From the NCBI GenBank assembly GCA_016125225.1, contig WGME01000005.1, forward strand, positions 1-64,000: a stretch of DNA of 64,000 bases, written 5' to 3'. The notes beneath the pieces are model-generated. The model was given only the letters and a program-made list of their open reading frames with translations, made no database searches and was not told where the DNA came from. Below are positions 37,823 through 53,005 of this stretch, one piece after another. Both the position numbers and the translations under genes were made by a program. Source of the stretch: a bacterium (GTDB taxonomy: Bacteria; Planctomycetota; Planctomycetia; Planctomycetales; Planctomycetaceae). The first letter of the stretch is position 1. Each line of letters starts with the position of its first letter.

Positions 37823-40800
37823 TTACTCGGCTCCGAGCAACTGGCCAGCCTCCTGCCGGTATTGCGGGCTGTGTACGTCCACGGGGTCCAGTGACGCCGA
37901 CCGATTGGGGGCACGTCGCTGGATCAGTGCAAAGACGGAAGGCAACACCAGCAGAGTCGCCATCGTCGCGGCCACCAAACCACCGATGACTGCCCGCCCC
38001 AGCGGAGCGGTCTGTGCTCCTTCCTCACCCAGGCCCAAGGCCATCGGAACCATCCCGACACCCATCGCGAGACTGGTCATCAGAATCGCCCGCAGTCGTC
38101 GCTCCCCCGCTTCGATGGCCCCCACTTTCGAATCACCGCTTCGCCGTCGCGATCCTTCGGCGAAGGTGACCAACAGAATTGCGTTGGCCATTGCCACTCC
38201 AACCGCCATGATCGCGCCGATAAACGATTGAATGTTGAGTGTCGAGCCGGTGAACCAGAGCGAGAGCACCACGCCCGCCAGGACGGCTGGTACCGTGGAC
38301 ACCGTCGTCAGTGCCAGCCGCAGCGATTGATAGTTGGCGGTCAGCAGCAGAAAGATCACGAGGATCGCCAGTGCCAGGCCAACTCCCAGGCCACTGACAA
38401 TCTGCCGCATCGGAGGAATCTGCCCTCGCAGTTCGGTCGTGACGCTTTTGGGACGCTTCCCATCGGCTTCGAGTTTCGCCAAAACCCGGTTGACGTCGCT
38501 CGATACCGATCCGAGATCCTGGCCGCTGATGTTCGCCGTCAGCGTGATCTCACGTTTCATGTTATATCGGTCAAATTGACCGGCCATCGTTCCCGGAGAA
38601 ATCTGGGCCACGTCTCGCAGCAGCAAGGGCTGACCGTCGCGGTAGTTGATCGGAATCGTCGCCAAATCCTCGGGCTGAGTCATCACCGGTTGCGGAATCT
38701 CGACTTGCACCTGATAGCCGATGCCCGTCTTGGGATCAGGCCAGTAGTTCTGCACGACAAATCGCGTGGACGATGTCGCAGCCACCACTGACCGAGCGAT
38801 CTGCGATGCCGTGGTGCCGGTGTAGGACGCCTTCTCGCGATCGAGCACGACATTCACCGTGGGATAGTCCAGCGACTGAGCAATCTGCACATCACGCAGG
38901 GCGGGAATGGATTTCAGTTCCTGATGAACGGCCAGCATGTATTCGCGACTTTCCATCAGGTTGGCACCACGGGCGGCGACCTCCAATGGCGTCGGAGAAC
39001 CAAAGCTCATCACCTCGCTGACAATGTCGGCAGGCTCGAACGAAAACCGCAACTCCGGGTACTGCTGCGCGAGAACGCCCCGCAGTTCGTCCTTAGTACG
39101 TTCCGGGTTAATGCCGCTGCCGTGCTTCGTGGCAATCCGTAACAGCCCTTCCTCCGGTCCGCGCGACCATTGATAGACGCCGTTAATCGGAAAGCTGGAC
39201 GGAATCGTGCCGACGTACCCCAACGTGATGTCGACGTTCTGCGGACCAACGTGCTTGCCGATGGCGTCGAGAATGCCCAGTGCATACTGTTCGGTTGTGT
39301 CGAAGTGAGTTCCATCGGGAGCACGGAACCGCAGCCGAAATTCACCCACTCCGGTACTCGGAAAGATTTCGACTCCCAGCCTTAACCCTACGCCTACCAC
39401 GATCGCCGCCGCGAGGGCCAGGTATGCCGGCACGACGATCCAACGGGCCGCGACCAGTCCCCCCAGGACGCGCGCATACAGCCCGGTCACACGATCGAAC
39501 AGGGTTCTCCGCGTCTGCGTGTGCCCCTGCCCGTGGTGGCGCAACAGCCAGACAGACATCACCGGCACGAATGTGCTCGAGAGAATATACGAAGCAATCA
39601 TCGAGAAACCGACTGCCAGCGACAGCGGCACGAACAGGTTGCGGGCCGCTCCCTGCATGAAGAACGACGGGACGAACACCGCGAGAATGCAGAGCATCGC
39701 GAGTAGCCGCGGGATCGCCGTTTCAGCATTACCCAATCGCACCGCCAATGCGATGGAGTCCGTTTTTGAGTACTGCGTGTGGATGTTCTCGATTTCAACC
39801 GTGGCCTCATCCACCAGAATCCCGACCGACAGCGCCAGTCCGCCCAGCGTCATCAGGTTGATGGTATGGCCACACAGCCACAGCCCCAAAATGGAGGCCA
39901 TGATCGCCAACGGAATGTTCAGCACGACGACCAGCGCGCTGCGCCAATCGCGGAGAAACAGCAGCACCATCAATCCCGTGAGCACAGCACCCAGCACGCC
40001 TTCGGTGAACAGGCTGTTGATGGCACGGGTCACGTAGGGAGACTGATCGAACTCGAATGACACCTTGATGTCACTGGGCAATTCTGCCTGCATCGTCGGG
40101 AGCGCCTTCTTGATCTCATCGATCACACTCATCGTCGAGGCTTCGGCCCGCTTCGTGGCCAGGATGTACACCGCCCGGCGACCATTTACGAGCGCGTAAC
40201 CCGTCTGCAAGTCGGTCGCATCCTCGATTGAGCCGATGTCACGCACATACACGGGCGGTCCGTGATTGGTCCGAATGGGGATGCTACCCAGATCGCGAAT
40301 ATCCTTGACCAGGGCATTCGTAGGAACGACCGGATAACTCGAACCGACGTGCAGGTTGCCGGACGGGCTGACCGCATTTCCCGCCGCCAACGCGGTCACG
40401 ACTTCATCGGGGGAAATGCTATACGACCGCAGTCGCTCCGGGTCGGCACGGATCACAATCGTGCGCGCACTGCCACCGAAAGGGGGCGGAGCCGAGACGC
40501 CCGGCAACGCTGAAAACATGGGGCGTACTTTGAAGAGGGCCTGATCCTGAATTTCACCCACCGTCCGCGATTCGCTCGACAGGACGAGATAACCGACGGG
40601 AACGCTGCCGGTGTCAAACCGCATCACGAACGGGGACACCGTTCCCGGCGGCATGAAGGCCCGCGAACGGTTGACATAGTTGATTGTCTCCGCCATCGCT
40701 TGGGCCATATCGGTGCCCGCGTGGAAGTACAGTTTCATCAGGGCCATGCCCTGGATGTTCCGGCTTTCGACGTGATGGATGCCGCTGATGTAGAGAAAGT

Positions 40801-41062
40801 GATACTCGTAATAGTTGGTCAGCAGACCTTCCATTTGGGCGGGGTCCATCCCTCCGTAGGGCTGACAGACATACACGACCGGCAGGTTCAAGGCCGGGAA
40901 AATGTCGACCTTCATTGTCTGAAGCGGAAATTCGACTCCGAAGGTCCGTAGCGACTGATCGACCCACTTGGGACGGAGAGCCACCGAACACGCCAGCACC
41001 ACAGCCACAACGCCAACCATCACGGTGAAGGGACGTCGCAGTGCAAATGCGATGGGGTTCAT
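37823..41062 (-). CDS. RND-family efflux pump permease
   Basis: A 1079-residue proton-driven inner-membrane pump; start ATG at 41062 (MNPIAFALRRPFTVMVGVVA). Typical features are VDIFPALNLPVVYV, the TM4 motif LALSVGILVDEATVEIENIH with its acidic residues, and the TM10 motif VGVAMANAILLVTFAEGSRR. The latter lacks the Lys expected at this site in AcrB-type pumps (KNAI). It is not of the CusA type (no GxxSRNGI), so the substrate is more likely an organic compound or drug than copper. The gene heads a minus-strand run with adaptor and TolC-family genes and faces a divergent padR-like gene with a shared operator. Confidence 0.85.
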   Translation of the reverse strand: MNPIAFALRRPFTVMVGVVAVVLACSVALRPKWVDQSLRTFGVEFPLQTMKVDIFPALNLPVVYVCQPYGGMDPAQMEGLLTNYYEYHFLYISGIHHVESRNIQGMALMKLYFHAGTDMAQAMAETINYVNRSRAFMPPGTVSPFVMRFDTGSVPVGYLVLSSESRTVGEIQDQALFKVRPMFSALPGVSAPPPFGGSARTIVIRADPERLRSYSISPDEVVTALAAGNAVSPSGNLHVGSSYPVVPTNALVKDIRDLGSIPIRTNHGPPVYVRDIGSIEDATDLQTGYALVNGRRAVYILATKRAEASTMSVIDEIKKALPTMQAELPSDIKVSFEFDQSPYVTRAINSLFTEGVLGAVLTGLMVLLFLRDWRSALVVVLNIPLAIMASILGLWLCGHTINLMTLGGLALSVGILVDEATVEIENIHTQYSKTDSIALAVRLGNAETAIPRLLAMLCILAVFVPSFFMQGAARNLFVPLSLAVGFSMIASYILSSTFVPVMSVWLLRHHGQGHTQTRRTLFDRVTGLYARVLGGLVAARWIVVPAYLALAAAIVVGVGLRLGVEIFPSTGVGEFRLRFRAPDGTHFDTTEQYALGILDAIGKHVGPQNVDITLGYVGTIPSSFPINGVYQWSRGPEEGLLRIATKHGSGINPERTKDELRGVLAQQYPELRFSFEPADIVSEVMSFGSPTPLEVAARGANLMESREYMLAVHQELKSIPALRDVQIAQSLDYPTVNVVLDREKASYTGTTASQIARSVVAATSSTRFVVQNYWPDPKTGIGYQVQVEIPQPVMTQPEDLATIPINYRDGQPLLLRDVAQISPGTMAGQFDRYNMKREITLTANISGQDLGSVSSDVNRVLAKLEADGKRPKSVTTELRGQIPPMRQIVSGLGVGLALAILVIFLLLTANYQSLRLALTTVSTVPAVLAGVVLSLWFTGSTLNIQSFIGAIMAVGVAMANAILLVTFAEGSRRRSGDSKVGAIEAGERRLRAILMTSLAMGVGMVPMALGLGEEGAQTAPLGRAVIGGLVAATMATLLVLPSVFALIQRRAPNRSASLDPVDVHSPQYRQEAGQLLGAE

Positions 41063-41197
41063 TGAGAGAGGACTTTCGTTAGAATCAGGCAACGGCGGTT
41101 CTGGCCAACTCACGCAATTGACACGATGTGATACAGTTAGGCGCTATCCAACCCTATCTGGTCACGATATCGTACTTCGATACAGGAGACGAAGCAA
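41063..41197. promoter_or_regulatory. Divergent promoter region of the RND pump and padR-like genes
   Basis: A 135-base region. On the minus strand, TTGCTT (rc of 41191-41196) and TACGAT, 17 bases apart, make a good -35/-10 pair for the pump operon, and the operator (41168-41182) overlaps the spacer and -10. On the plus strand TTGACA at 41118-41123 could be a -35 for the regulator, but its -10 is unclear. The operator would also sit just before the regulator's AGGAG site, allowing autoregulation. Confidence 0.6.
41168..41182. promoter_or_regulatory. Operator-like TATCG-N5-CGATA between the pump and padR-like genes
   Basis: TATCG (41168-41172), TACTT, CGATA (41178-41182), a perfect inverted repeat. 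One of three such sites in the window, all upstream of genes in the same cluster and one next to the regulator gene. Confidence 0.7.
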
Positions 41198-41524
41198 ATG
41201 CCGGGCGACGATTTGCTGAAACACTTTTTCGGCGGGTTCGTGCGCCTCCACATCCTGCACCATGCGGTTCTGGAACCGATTTATGGCGTGGAGATGATCG
41301 AAGAGTTGGGCCGACATGGCTACAAACTCAGCCCCGGCACGCTCTACCCCATTTTGCACGGCCTGGCAGAGGGTGGCTATCTCACCAGTGAAGACGAAGT
41401 GGTCGAGGGGAAGCGCCGCAAGAATTACCGGGCGACCAAAAAGGGCGAAAAACTGTTGCGGGAAGGCCGCGAGAAACTGCGTGAACTGTTCCGTGAAGTC
41501 GTCGAAGAAGGTCCGGCTTCATAA
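41198..41524 (+). CDS. PadR-family transcriptional regulator
   Basis: A 108-residue DNA-binding protein; AGGAGACG precedes the ATG. The winged helix-turn-helix has the PadR signature: FVRLHILHHAVLEPIYGVEM, then LSPGTLYPILHGLAEGGYLT (recognition helix and wing) and GKRRKNYRATKKGEKLL. Size and lack of a long C-terminal helix domain put it in the short (s1) subgroup. It is divergent from the RND pump, with the TATCG-N5-CGATA site between them, so it probably represses the efflux cluster and itself. Confidence 0.85.
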   Translation: MPGDDLLKHFFGGFVRLHILHHAVLEPIYGVEMIEELGRHGYKLSPGTLYPILHGLAEGGYLTSEDEVVEGKRRKNYRATKKGEKLLREGREKLRELFREVVEEGPAS

Positions 41525-42029
41525 GCATGCTGGATTCTGTGGATGAACTGATTCAGCTACGCTGAAATGTTTTCCGTCCTCAGGACAATTCCACCTCGCG
41601 AGGCAGGAAGAAGTCCTTGCCCAGGCTTTCCGGGTGGTCCAGGCGGTGGGGCCGAATGCGAGTCCGTAGCCACTTCCGATCGGACTCCGCTTCGCGGCCT
41701 TCGGTTCCGTAGATCATCGCACGGAATGGCGATTGAGGACCGAAAACAGCGGAAATGCAGGCTTTTTCAGAGAATCGCGAGCGTCGGAACCGCTCCCTGA
41801 CTTTCCAAATCTTACGGGATTTTCCATCCCGTACCAGTGTTTCTCTGACACAACTCTGACAAGCCGGTTCGGGCCTCGACTCCGCCTGTTATGCGGGCTG
41901 TAAGGCGCGTCGTCAGCAGTTTCTGAACGGTGGCTTTCAAGCCCCCTTCGATCGGCTTTTTTCGTGGTCGAAGCGGGGTACAAGGAATGTGCAACCCGTT
42001 CCAGAATACGAAGTCACGACAATACACCG
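41525..42029. other. Intergenic region with dispersed repeat copy B
   Basis: About 505 bases between the padR-like gene and the IS3-type transposase. It is largely occupied by repeat copy B (41698-41862). No gene is recognised in the rest, and no clear transposon terminal repeat was found. Confidence 0.45.
41698..41862. repeat. Dispersed non-coding repeat, copy B
   Basis: About 165 bases aligning with 8253-8420. It contains two hairpins: TTCCGT (41704-41709) with ACGGAA, and ACGGGAT (41814-41820) with ATCCCGT (41826-41832) around a 5-base loop. Copy A keeps both in weaker form. It lies about 170 bases upstream of the intact IS3-type transposase. Confidence 0.75.
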
Positions 42030-43088
42030 ATGGCGAAGATTTTCCACCCCTTGCTGGCGCTCATCGCCTCCTGCACGGATCGGGAGTTGGCCAAGCATGT
42101 CCAGTTCCTCAAGGAAGAAAATAAGATCCTTCGGAAACGAGTGAAGGGAGAGATCCACACCAGGCCCGAGGAGCGCCAGCGACTCTTGGAGTTCGGGAAG
42201 TCGCTCGGGCGTGCGATCGAAGAACTCATCACGATCGTCAGTCCCGGCACGTTCTATCGCTGGATGCGGGAAGACGGCGGCAAGAAGAAACCGAATCCCA
42301 AGGGGGGGCAACGCAAACCCCGCGAGATACGGGAACTGGTCATCGAGATCGCGAAGACCACAGGATTCGGATACACGCGGATCTTGGGCGAACTCCGAAA
42401 GATCGGAATCAAGAAGATTAGCCGGCAGACGGTACGGAACATCCTCAAGGAAGAAGGGATCGTGCCCGGTCCTGACCGGACTTCCGATAGCTGGGAGAAT
42501 TTCGTCAAACGGCACGGGGAGACGCTTTGGGCCGTGGATTTCTTCACGGTTAAAGCGGTCACCTCGCGCGGCATCCGAAACATGTATCTGATGACCTTCC
42601 TGTGTATGAAGACGCGGGAAGCGATCGTCTCGACCAGCACGGCTCGGCCGCATTCCGCCTGGGTGACGCAGCAGACGAAGCGGTTCATCGAGCAGACGTC
42701 AGACCGGAAAGAGAAGCCGGCGATCGTCATGCACGACCGGGATACGAAGTTCTCTCGGAAGTTCGTGGAGACGCTGCAGAAGAACGGGATCGAGACGAAC
42801 CCCCTGCCGGTGGCTTCCCCGAACCTCAACGGCCGCGTGGAGCGGTTCATCCAGACGATCAAGCACGAGTGCCTGTTCCGGTTCATTCTGTTCGGCCGCA
42901 AGCACCTCGACCACATCGTGAGCCAGTGGGTGGCCTACTACAACACGACCAGATCGCATATGGAGCGCGGGCATCTGCCGCCAGTGACGGAGATGCCGGA
43001 AGAGGTATCCACGTTGGACCGCAGCCAAATCGCGGTACGCTCATACGTCGGCGGATTAGTGAAGTCGTTCGAGCGGATAGCTGCATAA
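42030..43088 (+). CDS. IS3-type transposase (integrase-core DDE), intact
   Basis: A 352-residue transposase; ATG at 42030 (MAKIFHPLLALIASCTDREL). The N-terminal part has a leucine-rich helix (LAKHVQFLKEENKILRKRVK), then an HTH-like region (GFGYTRILGELRKIGIKKIS). The catalytic core is complete: first Asp in LWAVDFFTVKAV, second Asp in [14 protein letters not shown], Glu in NLNGRVERFIQTIKHECL. It is a single-ORF relative of the IS3/rve group rather than the two-ORF frameshifting type. No flanking inverted repeats were identified, so the element boundaries are open. A truncated relative sits at 30722-31135. Confidence 0.85.
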   Translation: MAKIFHPLLALIASCTDRELAKHVQFLKEENKILRKRVKGEIHTRPEERQRLLEFGKSLGRAIEELITIVSPGTFYRWMREDGGKKKPNPKGGQRKPREIRELVIEIAKTTGFGYTRILGELRKIGIKKISRQTVRNILKEEGIVPGPDRTSDSWENFVKRHGETLWAVDFFTVKAVTSRGIRNMYLMTFLCMKTREAIVSTSTARPHSAWVTQQTKRFIEQTSDRKEKPAIVMHDRDTKFSRKFVETLQKNGIETNPLPVASPNLNGRVERFIQTIKHECLFRFILFGRKHLDHIVSQWVAYYNTTRSHMERGHLPPVTEMPEEVSTLDRSQIAVRSYVGGLVKSFERIAA

Positions 43089-43353: not shown

Positions 43354-44265
43354 TTACCCGATACCAACCATTGTTGCACTCTCGCGCCACAGCTGATCCT
43401 GGGCATCTTGGCGTTGTGCCAGCTCTGAAGGATCGGGATACGTCGGTTGGCCTTTGACCAGTGAAATGTAAATCCGGTTGGGCGGAGGCCTGATCTTTCC
43501 TAGCGAGACGTCGGCCAACATTCTGCCCGAGTGTTCGGGCGTATTCATGACAAACTCAGGACGAAATAAGCCAATCAAGGGAAAGAGTGTCCGCGTCAGC
43601 AGTTTGACGAACACTTTTTGCAAAATGGAGGCGTCACGCCCCGAAGCACCGTCAGTGAGACCCGGATTGAATGCAATCACGTCGATCTGACGAGCCTTCA
43701 CTTCATTCTGCCGAGCAAATGACAGGGCGGTCATCAGGTTGCACAGCTTCGAGGCTGCATAGGAGCGTATGCCGGTGCCAGAACCATTTTCAGTGGGATG
43801 CGCCCACTCGTGCAGGTCGAGGATCTTGGGGGCGATCCGCTTGATGGGAGGGTCATGCATGTTGCTTGAAGTAATTACAAGACGACCATGATCGGCCATC
43901 TTCGGCAACAAAAGGCGAGCCAACAGATAGTGGGCAAGATGGTTGACTGCAAACGTAAGTCCAAAACCCTCTGCACTTCGCTGTTTCGCATTGGAACCGT
44001 GGATGCCAGCGTTGAGAATCAAGATGTCGATGCATTCGTCACCGAGCATCGTGATCACTGTATTAGCGAAGTCACGCACGCTCGCGAGGGAGGCGAGATC
44101 AAGTCCCAGAACCTCGACGCCGGGTGGAACAATTCGGTCGTTTCCCCGTGCACCGATGATGACCCGCGTGCCCGGAGCGGCCGCAATGTCCTTAAGCGTG
44201 CATTCACCAAAGCCTCCAGTTGCGCCCGTCATGACAACAACTTGTTGCGGTGTCGCGTTGTTCAT
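43354..44265 (-). CDS. Short-chain dehydrogenase/reductase (SDR)
   Basis: A 303-residue cytoplasmic oxidoreductase. The Rossmann glycine motif is TGATGGFGE (TGxxxGxG), followed by DILILNAG (NAG motif), VITSSNMHDPP (catalytic Ser) and the YAASK active site (IRSYAASKLCNLMTALS). It is close in layout to extended light-dependent-protochlorophyllide-reductase/retinol-dehydrogenase-like SDRs. Substrate unknown. It starts 2 bases after the stop of the TetR-family gene and is very likely cotranscribed with it. Confidence 0.85.
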   Translation of the reverse strand: MNNATPQQVVVMTGATGGFGECTLKDIAAAPGTRVIIGARGNDRIVPPGVEVLGLDLASLASVRDFANTVITMLGDECIDILILNAGIHGSNAKQRSAEGFGLTFAVNHLAHYLLARLLLPKMADHGRLVITSSNMHDPPIKRIAPKILDLHEWAHPTENGSGTGIRSYAASKLCNLMTALSFARQNEVKARQIDVIAFNPGLTDGASGRDASILQKVFVKLLTRTLFPLIGLFRPEFVMNTPEHSGRMLADVSLGKIRPPPNRIYISLVKGQPTYPDPSELAQRQDAQDQLWRESATMVGIG

Positions 44266-44267
44266 GT

Positions 44268-44957
44268 CTATCGGCCCTTGCCATGCTGTACGTCGTTAGC
44301 CACGGCAGCAAGGCCGGCGAGCGCGAATTGAACCATGTGCTGAAGAAGATCTGGCGCGCTCTCGGGCTTGAGGCTGAACTGAGGAAGTGCCTGTCGAAGC
44401 ATATGACGATCACAAAGCAACAGCATGAAGCAGGGCGCAACGATACTGACACAGCCGCGGGCGACTGCGGGATGCTCCTCGGGCAAACCCATCAACTCGC
44501 TGATGATTCCTTTGAGAACTCTGGCTTTCTCGGCAGGCGCCTCTCGATGCTGTGTTTGATTCGTGAGTGTTGGGGCTGTGAATTCGCGAATGAGGACGCG
44601 AAGTCTCCAGGAAGAGGCGGCCGGACTTGTCAGGACTTGCACAAATTGTCTCAGATAGGCTTCCAATTTGGCTTTGGCATCGAGTTGGCCCGCGACAGCT
44701 GCCTGCAAGTCCGCGGACTTCACTCGAAGACTGGCGGCCTCCTCAAGTACGGCAGCATAAAGTCCCTCGATTCCGCCGAAGTGGTAATTGACCGCAGCGC
44801 TGTTGGCACCGGCCTGCTCCGTGATCTCCTTGCTAGTAGTTCTGTCGAAGCCCTTTTCGGCGAAGAGTTGTCCGGCCACGTCGAGTAACCGCTCGCGGGT
44901 TTTAGAATTTTCCGCAGTGATTTCGGGCGGCGGCGACTGGCGTTTACTTTTCTTCAT
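44268..44957 (-). CDS. TetR-family regulator, CerR-like
   Basis: A 229-residue repressor. The N-terminal HTH spans about residues 20-65: TRERLLDVAGQLFAEKGFDR, TTSKEITEQAGANSAAVNYH, FGGIEGLYAAVL. The C-terminal ligand domain resembles CerR/DUF1956-type regulators (YLRQFVQVLTSPAASSWRLR, VLIREFTAPT). It is cotranscribed with an SDR gene and divergent from the 45.3-48.2 kb operon; a near-palindromic operator sits in between. It probably represses its own operon and the divergent transport genes, which would be induced by its ligand (inference). Confidence 0.85.
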   Translation of the reverse strand: MKKSKRQSPPPEITAENSKTRERLLDVAGQLFAEKGFDRTTSKEITEQAGANSAAVNYHFGGIEGLYAAVLEEAASLRVKSADLQAAVAGQLDAKAKLEAYLRQFVQVLTSPAASSWRLRVLIREFTAPTLTNQTQHREAPAEKARVLKGIISELMGLPEEHPAVARGCVSIVAPCFMLLLCDRHMLRQALPQFSLKPESAPDLLQHMVQFALAGLAAVANDVQHGKGR

Positions 44958-45045: not shown

Positions 45046-45117
45046 TGAATATCAGAATGCAACCAAAATGTCAATTTGAAATTTGAATTTGACTCATGCT
45101 CGGCGGGATGCTATTTT
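45046..45117. promoter_or_regulatory. Divergent promoters with a TetR-type operator (site 1)
   Basis: The operator 45070-45093 is a 24-base near-palindrome (20 of 24 bases match its own complement). Plus strand: TTGACT (45089-45094), 17 bases, TATTTT (45112-45117). Minus strand: TTGACA (rc of 45069-45074), 17 bases, TATTCA (rc of 45046-45051). So one operator overlaps the -35 box of both divergent promoters, for the TetR/SDR pair and the propeller-protein operon. Confidence 0.75.
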
Positions 45118-45273
45118 CGCTGACTGACGCACGCTCCGCTCGGAAGTGATTCCACAAAGCCTTCGGTTGCGGCGCCTGCTGCAAGTCTCCTTAGCGTGGA
45201 GGCAGATGGGGCCAGCACCGGCCTTGGCCGCTTCTCCCGCTACAACGAGTCACGCTCCACAGGAATCCCACGC

Positions 45274-47163
45274 ATGAGTTCTATTTCGCCGGAGACGGTT
45301 CAGCCCGTGGGGGTAGAAGGGTCGCGTCCGATACGCCTTTGGCCCGCATTCATCATCGTGGCACTCATGCTGGGTGCTGGATACTTGTTTTCGCAACTCC
45401 AATTCGACAATCCCGGCATTACTCATCTGGCACAGCTAGCCATCCCGCTTTTGGCGGCGATGTCGTTGATGGTGTGGTGGCTCTTCTTCAGCTGCCTGAA
45501 GTGGAGAGACCGGCTGGTCGTCCCGGCCATCATCATGGCCTGCTATTTCGGCACGTTTCTTGTCGCTGACGCGAGCATGCCGATTGCGCTCATCTTGTCC
45601 GCCTTGCCTCGGCTGATCCTCGTGGGAATCGTCTGGCTTGTGATCTCGATCCCACTGAAATGGCCACTTCGTCGCGCCGGCCTGGTACTCGCCGTTTTCC
45701 TGACGTGCGGGTATTACACGCTGCTCCGTTTTGAAGGGATTTCGGGAGAATTCTCGCTGAAACTGGATTACCGGTGGAAGCAGACGGCCGAAGAGAATTA
45801 CGTCACGTCACAAGTGCATCTGCCGACATCCGATACGGTCATGGGCGGGGACGGCAACATGGCAAGGCCGGGACTCGTCGCGACAAAAGGCGATTGGACA
45901 GCGTTTCGTGGAGCAGACGGCGTTTCCGTCTATCAAGGGCCACCGATCCCGGAAGATTGGTCGAAACATCCCCTGCAATTGCTTTGGAAGCGACGGATCG
46001 GTCCCGGCTGGGGCTCAGTTGTGATCGTCGGCTCTATCGGCTTCACCCAGGAGCAACGCGGACATCAGGAGGTCGTCACCGCATTCCAGATCGACACCGG
46101 CGAACCGATCTGGGAATTCGCCGAAGAAGCCCGCTTTGAGGAAGCCTTATCAGGGGCGGGACCGCGATCGACTCCATTGTTCCAAGGTGGGAAGCTCTAC
46201 TCGGTGGGGGCGACTGGACGCTTAAACTGTCTTGAAGCCCTCACTGGTGAGAAGGTCTGGGGAACTTCTATCGTCCGCGGAGAGAACATCGAAGTGCCCC
46301 AGTGGGGATATGCCTGCTCTCCCATTATCGTGGGGGATGTGGTGATCGTGCTGCCGGGAAAACCAGACGGCGCCGCGATCACGGCGTTCGATGCCAAGAC
46401 GGGTAATCCCCTTTGGGCCGCTGCGGACGGCGACCACTCTTATACGTCGGCACAGTACGCCACCATGTGCGATATCCCTCAGATCCTGGCGTTTACGAGT
46501 GTCGGACTGACAGGGATTTTGCCGGACAGTGGAAAGGTACTATGGAAGCATGAGTGGTCCGCTGGTGGTTATGCCCGCTGTGTCCAGCCTTACGTGCAGG
46601 ATGACACGATCGTGATTTCGACCTATTTCGGGCTGGGCATTCGCAAGGTGAAAGTGACGAGAGATGGAGAGACCTGGAAAGACGAAATCGTCTGGGATTC
46701 CAAAGGATTCAAGCCCTATTTCAACGATATGGTTGTCGTCGGCAAATATGCTTATGGTTTTGATAATACGATTTTTGCCTGCCTGGATCTGGCAACAGGG
46801 CAGCGCCAATGGAAGGGGGGACGATACGGTTGCGGTCAAGTTCTCCTGCTCGAAAAACAGCGGAAGTTGCTTGTGATTTCGGAGCAAGGGGAAGCCGTTC
46901 TGCTTGATGCGAACTCCGAACGGCACGTGGAACTCGCGAAGTTTCAGGCACTCGATGGCAAGACCTGGAATCACCCTGTGATCGCTCACGGCAAATTGTT
47001 TGTTCGCAATAGTGAAGAGATGGCCTGTTATGACGTCCGTCCGACGGTGGGTGTACCCGCTGAGTCGTTGACGCAACGGTCTGAAATACAGGACACCGCA
47101 GTTCGGAATCCAGGCGGACTCGTCGATGCGGGAGCCGTTCAAAGCTCGCGAGGATTGGAGTGA
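45274..47163 (+). CDS. Membrane protein with PQQ-like beta-propeller
   Basis: A 629-residue protein; ATG at 45274 with AGGA upstream. The N-terminal 160 residues hold about six hydrophobic helices (FIIVALMLGAGYLFSQL, LAIPLLAAMSLMVWWLFFS, VVPAIIMACYFGTFLVADAS). From about residue 205 an eight-bladed PQQ/WD40-like propeller follows: DWTAFRGADGVS, then repeated blades (VTAFQIDTGEPIWEF, LNCLEALTGEKVWG, ITAFDAKTGNPLWAA, DSGKVLWKHEWSAGGY, IFACLDLATGQRQWKGGRYG). Ligands for PQQ are not evident, so it may be a structural or assembly protein. It lies in an operon with a DUF1207-type protein and is probably repressed by the TetR-type regulator. Confidence 0.75.
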   Translation: MSSISPETVQPVGVEGSRPIRLWPAFIIVALMLGAGYLFSQLQFDNPGITHLAQLAIPLLAAMSLMVWWLFFSCLKWRDRLVVPAIIMACYFGTFLVADASMPIALILSALPRLILVGIVWLVISIPLKWPLRRAGLVLAVFLTCGYYTLLRFEGISGEFSLKLDYRWKQTAEENYVTSQVHLPTSDTVMGGDGNMARPGLVATKGDWTAFRGADGVSVYQGPPIPEDWSKHPLQLLWKRRIGPGWGSVVIVGSIGFTQEQRGHQEVVTAFQIDTGEPIWEFAEEARFEEALSGAGPRSTPLFQGGKLYSVGATGRLNCLEALTGEKVWGTSIVRGENIEVPQWGYACSPIIVGDVVIVLPGKPDGAAITAFDAKTGNPLWAAADGDHSYTSAQYATMCDIPQILAFTSVGLTGILPDSGKVLWKHEWSAGGYARCVQPYVQDDTIVISTYFGLGIRKVKVTRDGETWKDEIVWDSKGFKPYFNDMVVVGKYAYGFDNTIFACLDLATGQRQWKGGRYGCGQVLLLEKQRKLLVISEQGEAVLLDANSERHVELAKFQALDGKTWNHPVIAHGKLFVRNSEEMACYDVRPTVGVPAESLTQRSEIQDTAVRNPGGLVDAGAVQSSRGLE

Positions 47164-47166
47164 ATC

Positions 47167-48222
47167 ATGGATGGTGACACACCGACACGGCGGGTATGCG
47201 GCCTGATGCCGCGCGTGATTCGTGCTTTGTTACTCCTCGTCGCCTGGCTCGAGTGCGAGTTCTTCGACTCGAATGTTCTGAAAGCTCAATCTCAGCCGCT
47301 TTCGAATAACTCGCTTCCGTTTGACGATCGGCCATTATTTGGCTCGGCCTTTGAGGCCGACCTCATGAGCGCCGGAGAGTTTTCCCACGAGTTGTCTCCT
47401 TTTCTGGGCGAGAACCAGGTGGAATCGGTCGCCGTTTCGACATTCTCGTCAGCTCCGCCTGCTGAGTGGCAGTGGAAATTCCTGCCGCAGGGATTTCTGT
47501 ATCACACCTATTGGGCCAGTACGGCCGAACCGCGGTTGTCGACTCGCGCGATCAGCGATGTCGGAGGTCACAACTCTCTCGACTCGCAGATCGGGGCGCG
47601 GATCGGCCTTGTCCGCTTCGGCGATGCCGATGCCGAAGAGGGGTTCCAGTTCGACTTGCTTGGGGGGGCGAACCTGCGGCAGAACATCGATACGTACGAC
47701 TGGGATATGACTGGGACGGACTACCGTTATGACATCCCGTTGACGTACCGGAGGGGCCGGCATGCCTGGAAGTTCGGCTTCTACCACGTGAGTTCTCATA
47801 TGGGTGACGAATTCCTGAAATACAACCCTGCCATCTCGCGGATCGATTACTACCGCGACGCGATCTACCTCGGCTATTCGTACTACGCCACTCCTGAATT
47901 GCGACTGTATGGAGAAATTGATTATGCCCTGCGCTCCGATTTCGCAGAACCCCTGCATTTTCAGTTCGGTTTCGACTGGGGACCCGTCTCTCCGACCGGC
48001 GTTCGCGGCGCTCCCTTCGTCGCGGCCAACGTCCACCTTCGGGAAGAACTCGACTTCAGCGGCAACGTGAGTTTGCAGGCCGGATGGGCCTGGAAGGGCG
48101 AAGGGACGATGGCGGGAACACTGAGGACAGGTCTGCATTTCTACAATGGGGGGAGCCCGCAGTATTCCTTCTACCGCGAAAACGAACAGCAGATCGGCTG
48201 GGGCCTCTGGTACGACTTCTGA
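47167..48222 (+). CDS. DUF1207-type envelope protein
   Basis: A 351-residue protein starting 3 bases after the previous stop. It has an N-terminal signal or anchor (RVIRALLLLVAWLECEFF) and a beta-rich domain with the conserved layout FLPQGFLYHTYWASTAEPRL, QIGARIGLVRFGD, RHAWKFGFYHVSSHMGDEF, ISRIDYYRDAIYLGYSYYAT, ending in IGWGLWYDF. The terminal aromatic residue and alternating hydrophobic strands suggest an outer-membrane beta-barrel. DUF1207 proteins are frequent in planctomycetes and have no assigned function. Confidence 0.8.
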   Translation: MDGDTPTRRVCGLMPRVIRALLLLVAWLECEFFDSNVLKAQSQPLSNNSLPFDDRPLFGSAFEADLMSAGEFSHELSPFLGENQVESVAVSTFSSAPPAEWQWKFLPQGFLYHTYWASTAEPRLSTRAISDVGGHNSLDSQIGARIGLVRFGDADAEEGFQFDLLGGANLRQNIDTYDWDMTGTDYRYDIPLTYRRGRHAWKFGFYHVSSHMGDEFLKYNPAISRIDYYRDAIYLGYSYYATPELRLYGEIDYALRSDFAEPLHFQFGFDWGPVSPTGVRGAPFVAANVHLREELDFSGNVSLQAGWAWKGEGTMAGTLRTGLHFYNGGSPQYSFYRENEQQIGWGLWYDF

Positions 48223-48576
48223 TCAGGGCGGGCGATTCATATGAGTCATGGATGCGAACTAACAACTGGTGCGGTCAAGATCACAGCAACGAATTCCTGA
48301 AGGCTATTAGCAGAACTGAACACTCAGTCGCGGCTGCGTGATCCTTCCCACGATATTCGCTGAATCCAATGCGACCGGAGTGAGTCTCTTCTGAAGGCTC
48401 GGCCAGCAGCCGGCTAATTGGTTGATCTTTCGACACACGGGCCATTCAGAATAAAATTGAAATTTGAATTTGACTCAGATTCATGATTCATTTATAGTCG
48501 TTATCCGTCCGCTCGACCCAGAGCCAGTGTCACGGTTCAACACAATCTCACTGCTAAAGCTCTTTGAGGCCCGGAT
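48223..48576. other. Intergenic region carrying the promoter of the ABC exporter operon
   Basis: About 350 bases. The only clear element is the TetR-type operator and promoter at 48451-48498. The rest has no recognised gene and no strong terminator. Confidence 0.45.
48451..48498 (+). promoter_or_regulatory. TetR-type operator and promoter of the ABC exporter operon (site 2)
   Basis: The operator 48451-48474 matches site 1 (45070-45093) at 20 of 24 positions; a 19-base core from TTGAAATTTG to TTGACTCA is identical in both. TTGACT (48470-48475), 17 bases, TATAGT (48493-48498) make a strong -35/-10 pair with the operator over the -35. The first gene begins at 48577. Confidence 0.75.
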
Positions 48577-49701
48577 ATGGCGACCGCCACACTCGATAAA
48601 TCGACACCGCAGGCGCGACAACCAGTATTCCCCAAGAAGGCCCCCCATGGCCGTCGGCGATGGGTCTGGACTGGATTGTGGTTGTTAGTGATTTCCGTGG
48701 GACTGGTGATCGGCAGAACGTGGGTTTTTCCCCCACCCGTGCCTCTCCCTGTGCCGCGGGATCTCCCCCCAACTGTTGGTGGGCTAGGGCGTCTTACTCC
48801 CGAAGGCGACGTGATCAGCGTCGCTCCTCCAACACCCACTGGCGCCATGTCAGGGGCACGCGTGGAGAAACTGCTAGTCTCCGTCGGTGACGAGGTTAAA
48901 GTGGGGCAAGTTCTGGCACTTCTGGATACCCACCGCGGACGCGCTGCCTCCGTCCGGCAATTTCAGGCAATGATCGCGGTCGCCAAGGCGAAACTGGCTC
49001 TCATCAAGGCCGGGCCGAAATTAGAGGACATTCGAGTTCAGGAAGCCGTGATTCGGCATTCTCAGGCTGATCTCGCGGACGCGGTGTCGAGTTACGAACG
49101 AGCAGAAATACTCGCAACGAAGAATACCTTCACCCGTGAAGAGTTGGAGACCCGTCGGTTGAGGCGCGATCAGGCACAGGCCTCGCTTGAGCAGCAGCAG
49201 GCCCGCCTCGAAGCCATGAAGGCGATCCGACCAGAAGATGTGCAAGCCGCCGAAGCCGAGCTTGCGCAGGCCGAAGCCAGCCTAGAGATTGGGGAAGAAG
49301 ATCTGCGAAACACGGAAGTGCGTTCCCCGGTTGTCGGACGAATTCTGAGAATTCATGCCAGGGCCGGAGAACGAGTCGGGGACGAAGGGCTCCTCGATGT
49401 GGGGAATACTGGTGTCATGCATGTGATCGCGGAGATCTATGAGGCGGATATCGATAAGGTTCGGGTCGGCCAGAAAGCGAAGGCAAGAGTTCCGACGCTC
49501 GGAGACGTCTGGCTGACAGGGGAAGTTGTTGGCAAGGATCTGGTGATCGCCCGTCAGGACCTGTTCGACAACGACCCCGTTGCTGACATCGATTCCCGAA
49601 TCGTTGAAGTCCGCATTCAGCTTTCTCAGGAAGATAGCGCAAGAGTGGCCGGCTTGTCCAATGCCCGCGCGCAGGTCGTTATCGACATCGGGCAGGAGTA
49701 A
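48577..49701 (+). CDS. HlyD/DevB-type adaptor of an ABC exporter
   Basis: A 374-residue membrane-fusion protein. The N-terminal membrane helix (WVWTGLWLLVISVGLVIGRT) precedes GGLGRLTPEGDVISVAPPTP, then a lipoyl half-motif (LVSVGDEVKVGQVLALLDT), a long coiled-coil hairpin (about 130-240; QQQARLEAMKAI) and a second lipoyl half (RSPVVGRILRIHARAGERVG). The C-terminal barrel includes IAEIYEADIDKVRVGQKAKA. Its neighbours are a DevC-like permease and a DevA-like ATPase, so together they form a DevBCA-type exporter. Substrate unknown. Confidence 0.85.
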   Translation: MATATLDKSTPQARQPVFPKKAPHGRRRWVWTGLWLLVISVGLVIGRTWVFPPPVPLPVPRDLPPTVGGLGRLTPEGDVISVAPPTPTGAMSGARVEKLLVSVGDEVKVGQVLALLDTHRGRAASVRQFQAMIAVAKAKLALIKAGPKLEDIRVQEAVIRHSQADLADAVSSYERAEILATKNTFTREELETRRLRRDQAQASLEQQQARLEAMKAIRPEDVQAAEAELAQAEASLEIGEEDLRNTEVRSPVVGRILRIHARAGERVGDEGLLDVGNTGVMHVIAEIYEADIDKVRVGQKAKARVPTLGDVWLTGEVVGKDLVIARQDLFDNDPVADIDSRIVEVRIQLSQEDSARVAGLSNARAQVVIDIGQE

Positions 49702-49703
49702 CC

Positions 49704-50879
49704 ATGACATTCCTGTTTCGAGATCTGCCCATTGCCTGGCTGTCACTCAGCCACGGGCGGACGAAGTTAATCGCCGCGGTCATCGGCGTCGTCTTCGCTG
49801 ACCTGCTGATGTGGATGCAACTCGGCTTCATGACGGCAGCCATCCAGGGTGCGACCTTCATCCACAACCTGCTGGTTGGCGATCTGGTCGTCGTCAATCC
49901 GCAGTCTGAAATCTTGATGCAAGCAAAGCCGTTCCCACGAGTCTATCTGGCACGCGCTCTCAGCCATCCAGATGTCGCAACCATTTCTTTGCTGCGAGTC
50001 GGCGGAGTGGCCTGGAAGAACCCTCCAGGTTTGGGGACGGCCAGTGGAGAAAAACGCAATTTGACCATCTACAGCATTGAGCCGCATTCTCCCGCAATTG
50101 CTGCACCGGGCGTTGAGGAGTATGCGACACAGCTAACTGCCGCAGACACAGTCCTGTTCGACAGGCTGTCCCGCCCCGAGTTCGCTCCCGTCATCGCCAA
50201 ATACGAGTCGGGTGAACCGGTGGAGGCCGAGATCAACGGACGGCAGGTTCGCGTAGTGGGCTCTACGGCCATCGGTGCAAGTTTCCAGGTCGACGGGAAT
50301 CTCATCACGAGCGATCTGAATTTCCAACGTTTTACGAACCGCCCTCCCGGCTCAGCGGATGCCGGAATTATCCGCCTACGCCCGGAAGCCGATCCGGCGC
50401 AGGTCAAGGCCGAACTTCAGAAATCGCTGGGCAAGGACCTGCTGGTTCTCACCAAGAGCGAGTACATCGCGCGTGATCGGAGCTACTTGTCGCGACGCAG
50501 CCCCGTCAACTTCATCTTCGGCCTAGGGACTGCAGTCGGTTTTCTCGTCGGTTTTGCCATCGTTTATCAGGTGCTCTTCACCGACGTCAGCAATAATCTG
50601 CCGCAGTTCGCAACGCTGAAAGCCATCGGCTATTCAGACGGTTACTTGCAGCAGGTGGTGTTGCAAGAGGCCATCATCCTGTCAATCTTCGGATTCTTGC
50701 CAGGCACAATTCTGGCGAGCGGGCTTTATACAGCGGCGCGAGCGGCGACGAGATTACCGATGTCGTTGACCTGGGACCGCGGTTTGTTGGTCTTTGGTCT
50801 GACCGTCGTGATGTGCAGTCTTTCCGGACTGCTGGCGATTCGAAAACTTCGACAGGCAGACCCTGCAGACGTCTTCTAA
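49704..50879 (+). CDS. DevC/FtsX-type ABC exporter permease
   Basis: A 391-residue inner-membrane protein with AGGAG before its ATG. It has an N-terminal helix (LIAAVIGVVFADLLMWMQLG), a large periplasmic domain (about 45-270), and three C-terminal helices (INFIFGLGTAVGFLVGFAIV, ILSIFGFLPGTILASGLYTA, GLLVFGLTVVMCSLSGLLAI). The loop LPQFATLKAIGYSDGYLQQV is the coupling region typical of FtsX/MacB permeases. It forms an operon with adaptor and ATPase. Confidence 0.85.
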   Translation: MTFLFRDLPIAWLSLSHGRTKLIAAVIGVVFADLLMWMQLGFMTAAIQGATFIHNLLVGDLVVVNPQSEILMQAKPFPRVYLARALSHPDVATISLLRVGGVAWKNPPGLGTASGEKRNLTIYSIEPHSPAIAAPGVEEYATQLTAADTVLFDRLSRPEFAPVIAKYESGEPVEAEINGRQVRVVGSTAIGASFQVDGNLITSDLNFQRFTNRPPGSADAGIIRLRPEADPAQVKAELQKSLGKDLLVLTKSEYIARDRSYLSRRSPVNFIFGLGTAVGFLVGFAIVYQVLFTDVSNNLPQFATLKAIGYSDGYLQQVVLQEAIILSIFGFLPGTILASGLYTAARAATRLPMSLTWDRGLLVFGLTVVMCSLSGLLAIRKLRQADPADVF

Positions 50880-50892
50880 AGGAATGGCACTG

Positions 50893-51681
50893 ATGGGACA
50901 ATCACCTGTCACGAACTTCATGGCCGCGCGACCTGGATCCTTTGATCCTCCAGCAAGCATACGTGCTGGGCGGAATGGTGATCGGCGTCGCTTCGATGCC
51001 GCCGATCCGGCTGTCACCGTTCGGAACCTCGACTTTTCCTACGAAGAGGCCGGGGCGATGAAGCAGGTGTTGTTTGATATCGATCTGGACATCTGGCCGG
51101 GTGAAATCGTTCTCCTGACCGGTCCCTCCGGCTGTGGCAAGACCACGCTCCTGTCCTTGATCGGAGGCCTCCGCACGGTGCAATCCGGCGAACTCACCGT
51201 CCTGGGACACTCACTTCATGGTAGTCCGGCAGGGGAATTGGTCGAAGTTCGACGGCATATTGGCTTTATCTTCCAGATGCACAACCTGATGGAGTTCCTG
51301 ACGGCGCGCCAAAATGTGCAGATGACGCTCCAGTTGCACCCAGGACTGACCCGCGCAGAGATGGAAGAACGTGCCAATCAGGCACTTGATGAGGTTGGCC
51401 TGGGTCATCGGCGTGCTGCGTATCCAGCCAACATGTCCGGCGGGCAAAAACAGCGGGTATCCATCGCTCGTGCTCTGGTGAATCATCCCCGACTTGTGTT
51501 GGCTGACGAGCCGACGTCGGCACTGGACAGCAAAACTGGGCACGAAGTCATTGACATTCTGGTGCGACTCGCGCGTGAACAGGGCTGTGCCATCCTGATG
51601 GTGACGCACGATACTCGTATCTCCGATATGGCGGATCGAATCATTGCGATGGAGGACGGCCATATCATCTCTGATGAATGA
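50893..51681 (+). CDS. DevA-type ABC exporter ATPase
   Basis: A roughly 262-residue cytoplasmic ATPase. AAAGGA sits nine bases before the ATG at 50893; the ATG at 50884 is an alternative. Walker A is GPSGCGKTTLL, the signature MSGGQKQRVSIARAL, Walker B LVLADEPTSALDS and the H-loop VTHD. It belongs to the MacB/LolD-like subgroup. The N-terminal 45 residues before VTVRNLDFSYEEAG are unusual and poorly conserved in look. It powers the DevC-like permease. Its stop precedes the next start by about 100 bases. Confidence 0.85.
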   Translation: MGQSPVTNFMAARPGSFDPPASIRAGRNGDRRRFDAADPAVTVRNLDFSYEEAGAMKQVLFDIDLDIWPGEIVLLTGPSGCGKTTLLSLIGGLRTVQSGELTVLGHSLHGSPAGELVEVRRHIGFIFQMHNLMEFLTARQNVQMTLQLHPGLTRAEMEERANQALDEVGLGHRRAAYPANMSGGQKQRVSIARALVNHPRLVLADEPTSALDSKTGHEVIDILVRLAREQGCAILMVTHDTRISDMADRIIAMEDGHIISDE

Positions 51682-51778
51682 CGCCACCCCAATTTACGGT
51701 GAGGTACTGAACCACCGGCACCTTATTCAAGCAGACGGCGCAGGCCTAGCGTTTCTATGCCACGGAAGGCTGAAAACA

Positions 51779-53005
51779 ATGAAACGACAGTGGTGCCTTC
51801 CGGCGATACTTCCGAACCAGCTGTCTTCTCAAGCGTTAACGCCGCACGATCGGCCTCGAAATTATGACAAGGCACCGGTTCGGCTGTGCTGGATATCGCT
51901 TCCGACGATCCTGTTGATTGCTCTATCTGGCAACCATCTATTTGCGAGTGATAATGATGACATCAACGTCAGGGACGGTGAAGCATCGGGATTCGTGCTG
52001 ACCCCCGATGAGGTCTTTGGGGAAGAGCAGAGTTCGGACGAAATTGGACCGGTCACTCCGCTCACACGTAGTCACCGACAGAGAGGACCGCTTGGACCTG
52101 GACCCAGCGGCCGCCGAGGGAGTATGGGAGGCCGAGGAAGGCAGCCCGGATACACAATGACCTGGTACCCTTCGCAGGCTGTTTCCGGGCAATCCGGCGA
52201 GCTTGGAATGCTGCGCCAAAGCATCTCTGCCCCTGTGCCCATTTGGATGGGAGAAGGACAAGCGGTTTTAATGAATGTGAGCGTGGGGAACATCCACTTC
52301 ACGGGGAACGTAATTCTTCCAGATAGCAGCCGTTTATTTCCTGAGAATCTGTGGAACGTGAATGTCGGCCTGAATTACGTGCGTCAGTTCGATAACGGAT
52401 GGACCGGCATGTTGATGACGGGCATCGGTGCCTTGGGCGATGCCCCGTTCCAGAGAAGCGACGAGATCAACCTCATGTTGGGCGGGACTCTGACGATTCC
52501 GGCTCGAAACGACCGAGACTTCTGGAATCTCGGAGTCATCTTTTCTTCCGGAGGCACGCTCAACTTTCCGATTCCAATCGTCGGATACAACTGGAATCCA
52601 TCGGAAACATTTCAAATGACAATCGGGCTGCCTATGTCAATGCATTGGGAGCCTGCGGACGATTGGTCCGTGGATATGTCTTACGTCCCTCTAACCAATG
52701 TCAACGCGAGAGTTACTTACTCGGCGGTGGAGAAGTTGTCCTTCTACGGAGGTTACGAGAACATCACGGAATCCTATTTCCTGTCGGACCGCATCAATTC
52801 TGACCACCGTTTCTTTGTCTTCGAACAACGGGTGATATGTGGCGCTCAATGGAAATTTTCCGATCACTTCACGGCGGACTTGCATGCTGGCTATGCATTC
52901 GAGCGCAGATTCGGCGAAGGTGAGAATCAGGGTTCATCTCTCCAGGACGAAGTCACCGTCTCACCAGGAGCCTTCTTGGGTCTGAACATCCGTCTTGATT
53001 TTTGA
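51779..53005 (+). CDS. DUF6268-type outer-membrane protein
   Basis: A 408-residue protein; ATG at 51779 preceded by GGAAGG. The N-terminal hydrophobic stretch after LCWISLP (TILLIALSGNHLFA) looks like a signal peptide with a long n-region. A low-complexity linker (GPLGPGPSGRRGSMGGRGRQ) precedes a beta-barrel-like domain: WNVNVGLNYVRQFDNGWTGM, GIGALGDAPFQRSDEINLML, LNFPIPIVGYNWNPSETFQM, ending in FLGLNIRLDF. The pattern of alternating strands and the terminal Phe are typical of outer-membrane barrels and of DUF6268. It may be an outer-membrane partner of the DevBCA exporter. Confidence 0.75.
   Translation: MKRQWCLPAILPNQLSSQALTPHDRPRNYDKAPVRLCWISLPTILLIALSGNHLFASDNDDINVRDGEASGFVLTPDEVFGEEQSSDEIGPVTPLTRSHRQRGPLGPGPSGRRGSMGGRGRQPGYTMTWYPSQAVSGQSGELGMLRQSISAPVPIWMGEGQAVLMNVSVGNIHFTGNVILPDSSRLFPENLWNVNVGLNYVRQFDNGWTGMLMTGIGALGDAPFQRSDEINLMLGGTLTIPARNDRDFWNLGVIFSSGGTLNFPIPIVGYNWNPSETFQMTIGLPMSMHWEPADDWSVDMSYVPLTNVNARVTYSAVEKLSFYGGYENITESYFLSDRINSDHRFFVFEQRVICGAQWKFSDHFTADLHAGYAFERRFGEGENQGSSLQDEVTVSPGAFLGLNIRLDF

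Follow-up and report, generated by a model that had tools for sequence, protein, structure and literature searches.

A Predicted PhlH/PltZ-Type Repressor With a Duplicated Operator, One Copy Over a DevBCA Exporter Operon, in a Planctomycete

In a planctomycete DNA stretch of 64,000 nucleotides (hereafter the window), comparisons of sequences indicate that a TetR-family protein of the PhlH/PltZ type regulates its own gene and represses two further operons, PQQ-DUF1207 and DevBCA-DUF6268, from which a ligand would release it; we assign this reading a probability of approximately 0.87. The two operator sites, their conservation together with the regulator clade, their match to the PhlH/PltZ motif, and the geometry of the surrounding promoters were seen directly. 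Since the operator was recovered in three independent ways (a weight matrix, the published motif, and clade conservation), the interpretation is supported, and so is the regulon put forward in the original prediction (TetR, SDR, PQQ-like propeller, DUF1207, DevBCA, and DUF6268).

Regulator and Genes of the Proposed Regulon

The genes considered here are as follows:

43354..44265, minus strand: SDR (short-chain dehydrogenase), beginning 2 bases past the TetR stop
44268..44957, minus strand: TetR-family repressor with a CecR_C (DUF1956) domain, PhlH/PltZ type, predicted by domain and homology searches
45274..47163, plus strand: PQQ_2/BamB-like beta-propeller protein, membrane anchor judged by eye
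47167..48222, plus strand: DUF1207 protein, whose homologues adjoin the operator in G148 and G343
48577..49701, plus strand: DevB-family membrane fusion protein (TIGR02971, 216.8 bits, cut-off 129)
49704..50879, plus strand: DevC permease (TIGR01185, 389.4 bits, cut-off 290.35)
50884..51681, plus strand: DevA ATPase (TIGR02982, 334 bits, cut-off 295.8)
51773..53005, plus strand: DUF6268 protein, start codon uncertain (the ORF opens at 51644)

By homology, the window regulator is classed as a PhlH/PltZ-type TetR repressor. Both of its domains passed the Pfam cut-off of 24 bits (TetR_N with 48.5 bits and CecR_C with 42.3 bits), and among solved structures PDB 7e1l/7e1n is by far its nearest relative; of these, 7e1n is PhlH from Pseudomonas fluorescens 2P24 complexed with 2,4-DAPG (PMC11878095). 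The phmmer match to PhlH (E 1.5e-38) covers residues 13-221, nearly the full length, the recognition-helix stretch ANSAAVNYHF is identical in the two proteins, and the tree places the window TetR in one 17-member clade with PhlH (support 100/99). The E. coli CecR equivalog (NF008587) was rejected as an assignment, with 31 bits against a cut-off of 365.

DevB, DevC, and DevA are encoded by adjacent genes that all score above curated cut-offs and, by these models, form a DevBCA exporter. The SDR gene is probably on the same transcript as TetR, and close spacing and orientation suggest that the PQQ gene, the SDR gene, and the DUF6268 gene are regulon members, as previously claimed; co-transcription of the PQQ and DUF6268 genes with their operons is likewise suggested by gene spacing. 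An IS481/IS3-like transposase gene (41964-43088, plus strand) is located downstream of the SDR gene, and a few kb from the regulator are an RND-type efflux permease gene (37823-41113, minus strand) and a short ORF that appears PadR-like by eye (41198-41524, plus strand), at neither of which was an operator found.

The Operator Pair and the Published Motif

The two sites are:

45070..45093: operator 1, GTCAATTTGAAATTTGAATTTGAC, near-palindrome, putative binding site
48451..48474: operator 2, ATAAAATTGAAATTTGAATTTGAC, putative binding site

A 24-base near-palindrome does recur at both coordinates, as first proposed, with complementary arm pairs at 10/12 positions in operator 1 and 9/12 in operator 2. 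The similarity of the sites was likewise found, with a corrected count: 21 of the 24 bases are identical, where 20 had been given, and a 3-base shift of the frame (45073-45096 and 48454-48477) raises the identity to 23/24. A genome scan for further copies (6.35 Mb) located the 18-mer common to both operators in exact form only at these two places, and the other matches obtained genome-wide with 3 mismatches were unconvincing as further operators.

The motif TNNAATTNNAATTNNA is common to PltZ and PhlH, and for PltZ it was established by gel shift and mutation (PMC7360687). Three exact matches are present in the window (0.05 expected), all of which are within the two operators: one at 45077-45092 in operator 1, in the divergent intergenic region between the TetR and PQQ genes, and two at 48452-48467 and 48458-48473 in operator 2. 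The motif occurs at three other places in the genome, each inside a long open coding frame (417-aa, 628-aa, and RpoB-like), which makes them unconvincing as further operators. The consensus for the family, GTCAAATTCAAATTTGAATTTGAC, forms a longer palindrome in which AATT boxes, three in all, stand six bases apart; by inspection, it contains TNNAATTNNAATTNNA twice.

Conservation of the Operator Beside Related Regulators

Relatives of the regulator were sought in genome contigs and in samples of the window's family, class, and phylum; the phylum sample yielded no further relative, and wider taxon searches added one planctomycete, G343. The operator adjoins the regulator in all 16 members of one clade (support 100/97), which comprises the window and 15 relatives from Planctomycetota and Alphaproteobacteria. 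The identity of these regulators to that of the window is 68% in G148, 60% in G343, 57% in L024 (labelled Rhodopirellula), 48-49% in three g9 genomes, 43% in Reyranella (L025), and 37-40% in eight Rhizobiaceae and related contigs. A weight matrix made from the relatives' sites only, with the window excluded, gave scores of 35.9 for operator 1 and 35.0 for operator 2, the next best site in the window scoring 17.3. Because the clade's own sites served to train the matrix, their scores express coherence; the independent tests are the window, G343, and the published motif.

No operator was detected in the regions read around distant CecR-like regulators (about 30% identity, including the genome's paralogue). 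Among the best hits to DevC, PQQ, and DUF1207 homologues, with about 1.5 kb of flank, it was absent unless the regulator adjoins. The paralogue itself (L108; G000 contig C25, about 38460-41930) is a CecR-like regulator beside DevC-DevA-DevB-type genes. Two overlapping operators 13 bases apart were observed in the g9 genomes (L105:3085-3121, L106:2937-2973, and L107:7752-7788), and the same offset was found in Rhizobium (L027:9951 and 9964), which suggests the binding of two dimers.

Promoters and Proposed Mechanism

Three promoters were predicted over the operators:

45089..45117, plus strand: predicted promoter of the PQQ-DUF1207 operon, TTGACT-N17-TATTTT, -35 within operator 1
48470..48498, plus strand: predicted promoter of the DevBCA-DUF6268 operon, TTGACT-N17-TATAGT, -35 within operator 2
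45046..45074, minus strand: predicted divergent TetR-SDR promoter, TTGACA-N17-TATTCA, -35 within operator 1, weak -10

The operators overlap these predicted promoters of their targets, which were called with the sigma-70 consensus of E. coli. At each site, the operator end TTTGAC supplies the -35 of a TTGACT-N17-TAnnnT promoter, and both plus-strand promoters fit TTGACT-N17-TATNNT exactly. The last T of the -10 element is conserved, and the divergent TetR/SDR promoter is considered weaker because TATTCA lacks it. To speak of three matching promoters, as had been done, was thus slightly generous, since only the two plus-strand ones are exact; the TTGACT of both plus-strand promoters does lie within the operators, and operator 1 also covers the divergent TTGACA box on the minus strand. 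That the arrangement is too exact for chance holds for the 24-mer match in simulations but not for the promoters alone, whose pattern matches are not significant by themselves (7 found versus 4.2 expected).

Among clade members, ten sites have the operator end as the -35 and TAnnnT at exactly N17 (two in the window, one in G148, two in G343, one each in L024 and Reyranella, and three in g9); the three g9 genomes are near-copies, so these promoters amount to about 8 independent cases, and several of the -10 elements match only 3/6 bases. G343 also carries TTGCAA-N17-TATTCT at the place equivalent to the divergent TetR promoter. The -35 geometry is not universal, because in Rhizobiaceae a -10-like TATAAT closely follows the operator; in Rhizobium this is five bases beyond the operator's TTGACA, a spacing unlike that of the N17 sites, and the operator would therefore sit between -35 and -10. 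A second promoter-like match in the window (TCGACA-N16-TAAAAT, 48430-48457) has a -10 that overlaps the left edge of operator 2.

In the proposed mechanism, a dimer of the PhlH/PltZ-type TetR repressor would bind the 24-bp near-palindrome at both sites. Occupation of operator 1 would block the -35 of the PQQ-DUF1207 promoter and of the repressor's own TetR-SDR promoter (autoregulation), and occupation of operator 2 would block that of the DevBCA-DUF6268 exporter operon, until a hydrophobic ligand, probably phenolic or antibiotic-like, frees the repressor and the exporter, envelope proteins, and SDR are induced jointly. The binding, the regulatory direction, the starts of the transcripts, and the class of ligand are what we infer here. 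Such a ligand is a reasonable guess because PltZ and PhlH are released by 2,4-DAPG; clade members have only about 40% identity to PhlH, so the ligand need not be the same.

Alternative Explanations

The direction of regulation could be different if the window TetR were an activator, or a dual regulator at one site, as some TetR proteins activate and E. coli CecR is annotated as a dual regulator. However, the operator covers the -35 at both sites, which is a repressing position, and PhlH and PltZ, the nearest relatives that have been characterised, are repressors, so we regard this as improbable. Conceivably, too, the site at 48451 is the target of another TetR, such as the CecR-like paralogue on contig C25, which is 29% identical and has its own DevCAB-type genes beside it. 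Such an operator was found neither around this paralogue nor near its close relatives, and it is the window TetR whose recognition helix matches PhlH; a second regulator is accordingly very improbable.

Chance, or an AT-rich repeat with no regulatory role, might be suspected from the AT-rich, low-complexity core of the operators, and the palindrome by itself is only modestly unusual: when both intergenic regions were simulated 3000 times with a first-order Markov model, 41 runs reached 10/12. In these runs, the closest pair of 24-mers averaged 16 identical bases, reached 20 once, and never reached 22 or the level observed. The match of both operators to a published binding motif argues against coincidence, and their cross-phylum conservation with the regulator does so strongly, leaving this explanation hardly any credibility. 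Repression by the PhlH/PltZ-type regulator is the reading that we prefer.

Different Targets Under One Operator

The genes beside the operator in relatives include a DUF1207 gene in G148 (product 74% identical to that of the window); DUF2141 together with HlyD, an FtsX-type permease, and an ABC ATPase (MacB-like ABC) in g9; an MFP-RND pair in L024; HlyD and a double-ABC protein in Rhizobium; and cytochrome b561, a VOC-like protein (by eye), and an SDR in Reyranella. G343, which belongs to another family of the same class, has the two-operator plan of the window with a different exporter (TetR, operator, DUF1207, second operator, DUF6268, MFP, and RND), and its DUF1207 protein is 82% identical to that of the window over 268 residues. 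The G343 sites share the local variant AAATG and the two window sites share TTGAAA, as expected if the sites of one genome drift together. A weaker, third operator-like site in G343 (L208:12061-12084) has TTTACT-N17-TAACTT toward a 242-aa protein without a Pfam match.

The window system is a well supported, fairly ordinary drug-response-style switch of the known PhlH/PltZ type; what is new is its planctomycete host, the duplication of its operator, and the presence of a DevBCA exporter, and its most interesting part is an operator that is constant across phyla while the exporter changes. It offers a specific operator for an exporter regulator in the planctomycetes, where few regulons have been mapped, connects the uncharacterised proteins DUF1207 and DUF6268 with exporter induction, and extends the spread of the PhlH/PltZ operator far beyond the Pseudomonas antibiotic clusters of its first description. 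We tentatively suggest, with more doubt than confidence, that the regulator-operator pair of Planctomycetota and Alphaproteobacteria is a portable cassette whose ready-made -35 captures genes with a -10 located 17 bases downstream. If true, this would explain the exchange of DevBCA, RND, MacB-like, double-ABC, and redox genes under one switch.

Comparison With Known Systems

In the PltZ-pltIJKNOP system of Pseudomonas aeruginosa, the repressor PltZ controls an ABC/MFP exporter operon, with 2,4-DAPG as the releasing ligand (PMC7360687). As in the window, the TetR repressor gene is divergent from the MFP and ABC exporter operon, and the TNNAATTNNAATTNNA bound by PltZ is contained in both window operators. 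However, the PltZ site overlaps the -10 whereas the window operators overlap the -35, the ABC exporter is of a type other than DevBCA, and the operator in the window, a 24-bp palindrome that includes three AATT-like boxes, is longer and has another copy over a second operon. PhlH-phlG of Pseudomonas fluorescens (7e1l, 7e1n; PMC11878095) has a regulator of the same clade and a similar operator, and PhlH is also a repressor released by 2,4-DAPG; its target is a hydrolase gene, in contrast to the exporter of the window, and its ligands are 2,4-DAPG/pyoluteorin, whereas for the window a ligand class can only be suggested.

The CecR (YbiH)-ybhGFSR/rhlE system of E. coli resembles that of the window in the CecR_C domain and in the control of an MFP/ABC exporter. 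The E. coli rhlE-cecR spacer was rejected as an instance of the same operator, as it has a different palindrome-like sequence. With regard to the cyanobacterial DevBCA, the DevB, DevC, and DevA proteins of the window pass the same curated models, whereas the window exporter, unlike its cyanobacterial counterpart, has a PhlH/PltZ-type operator and a DUF6268 gene following the exporter genes.
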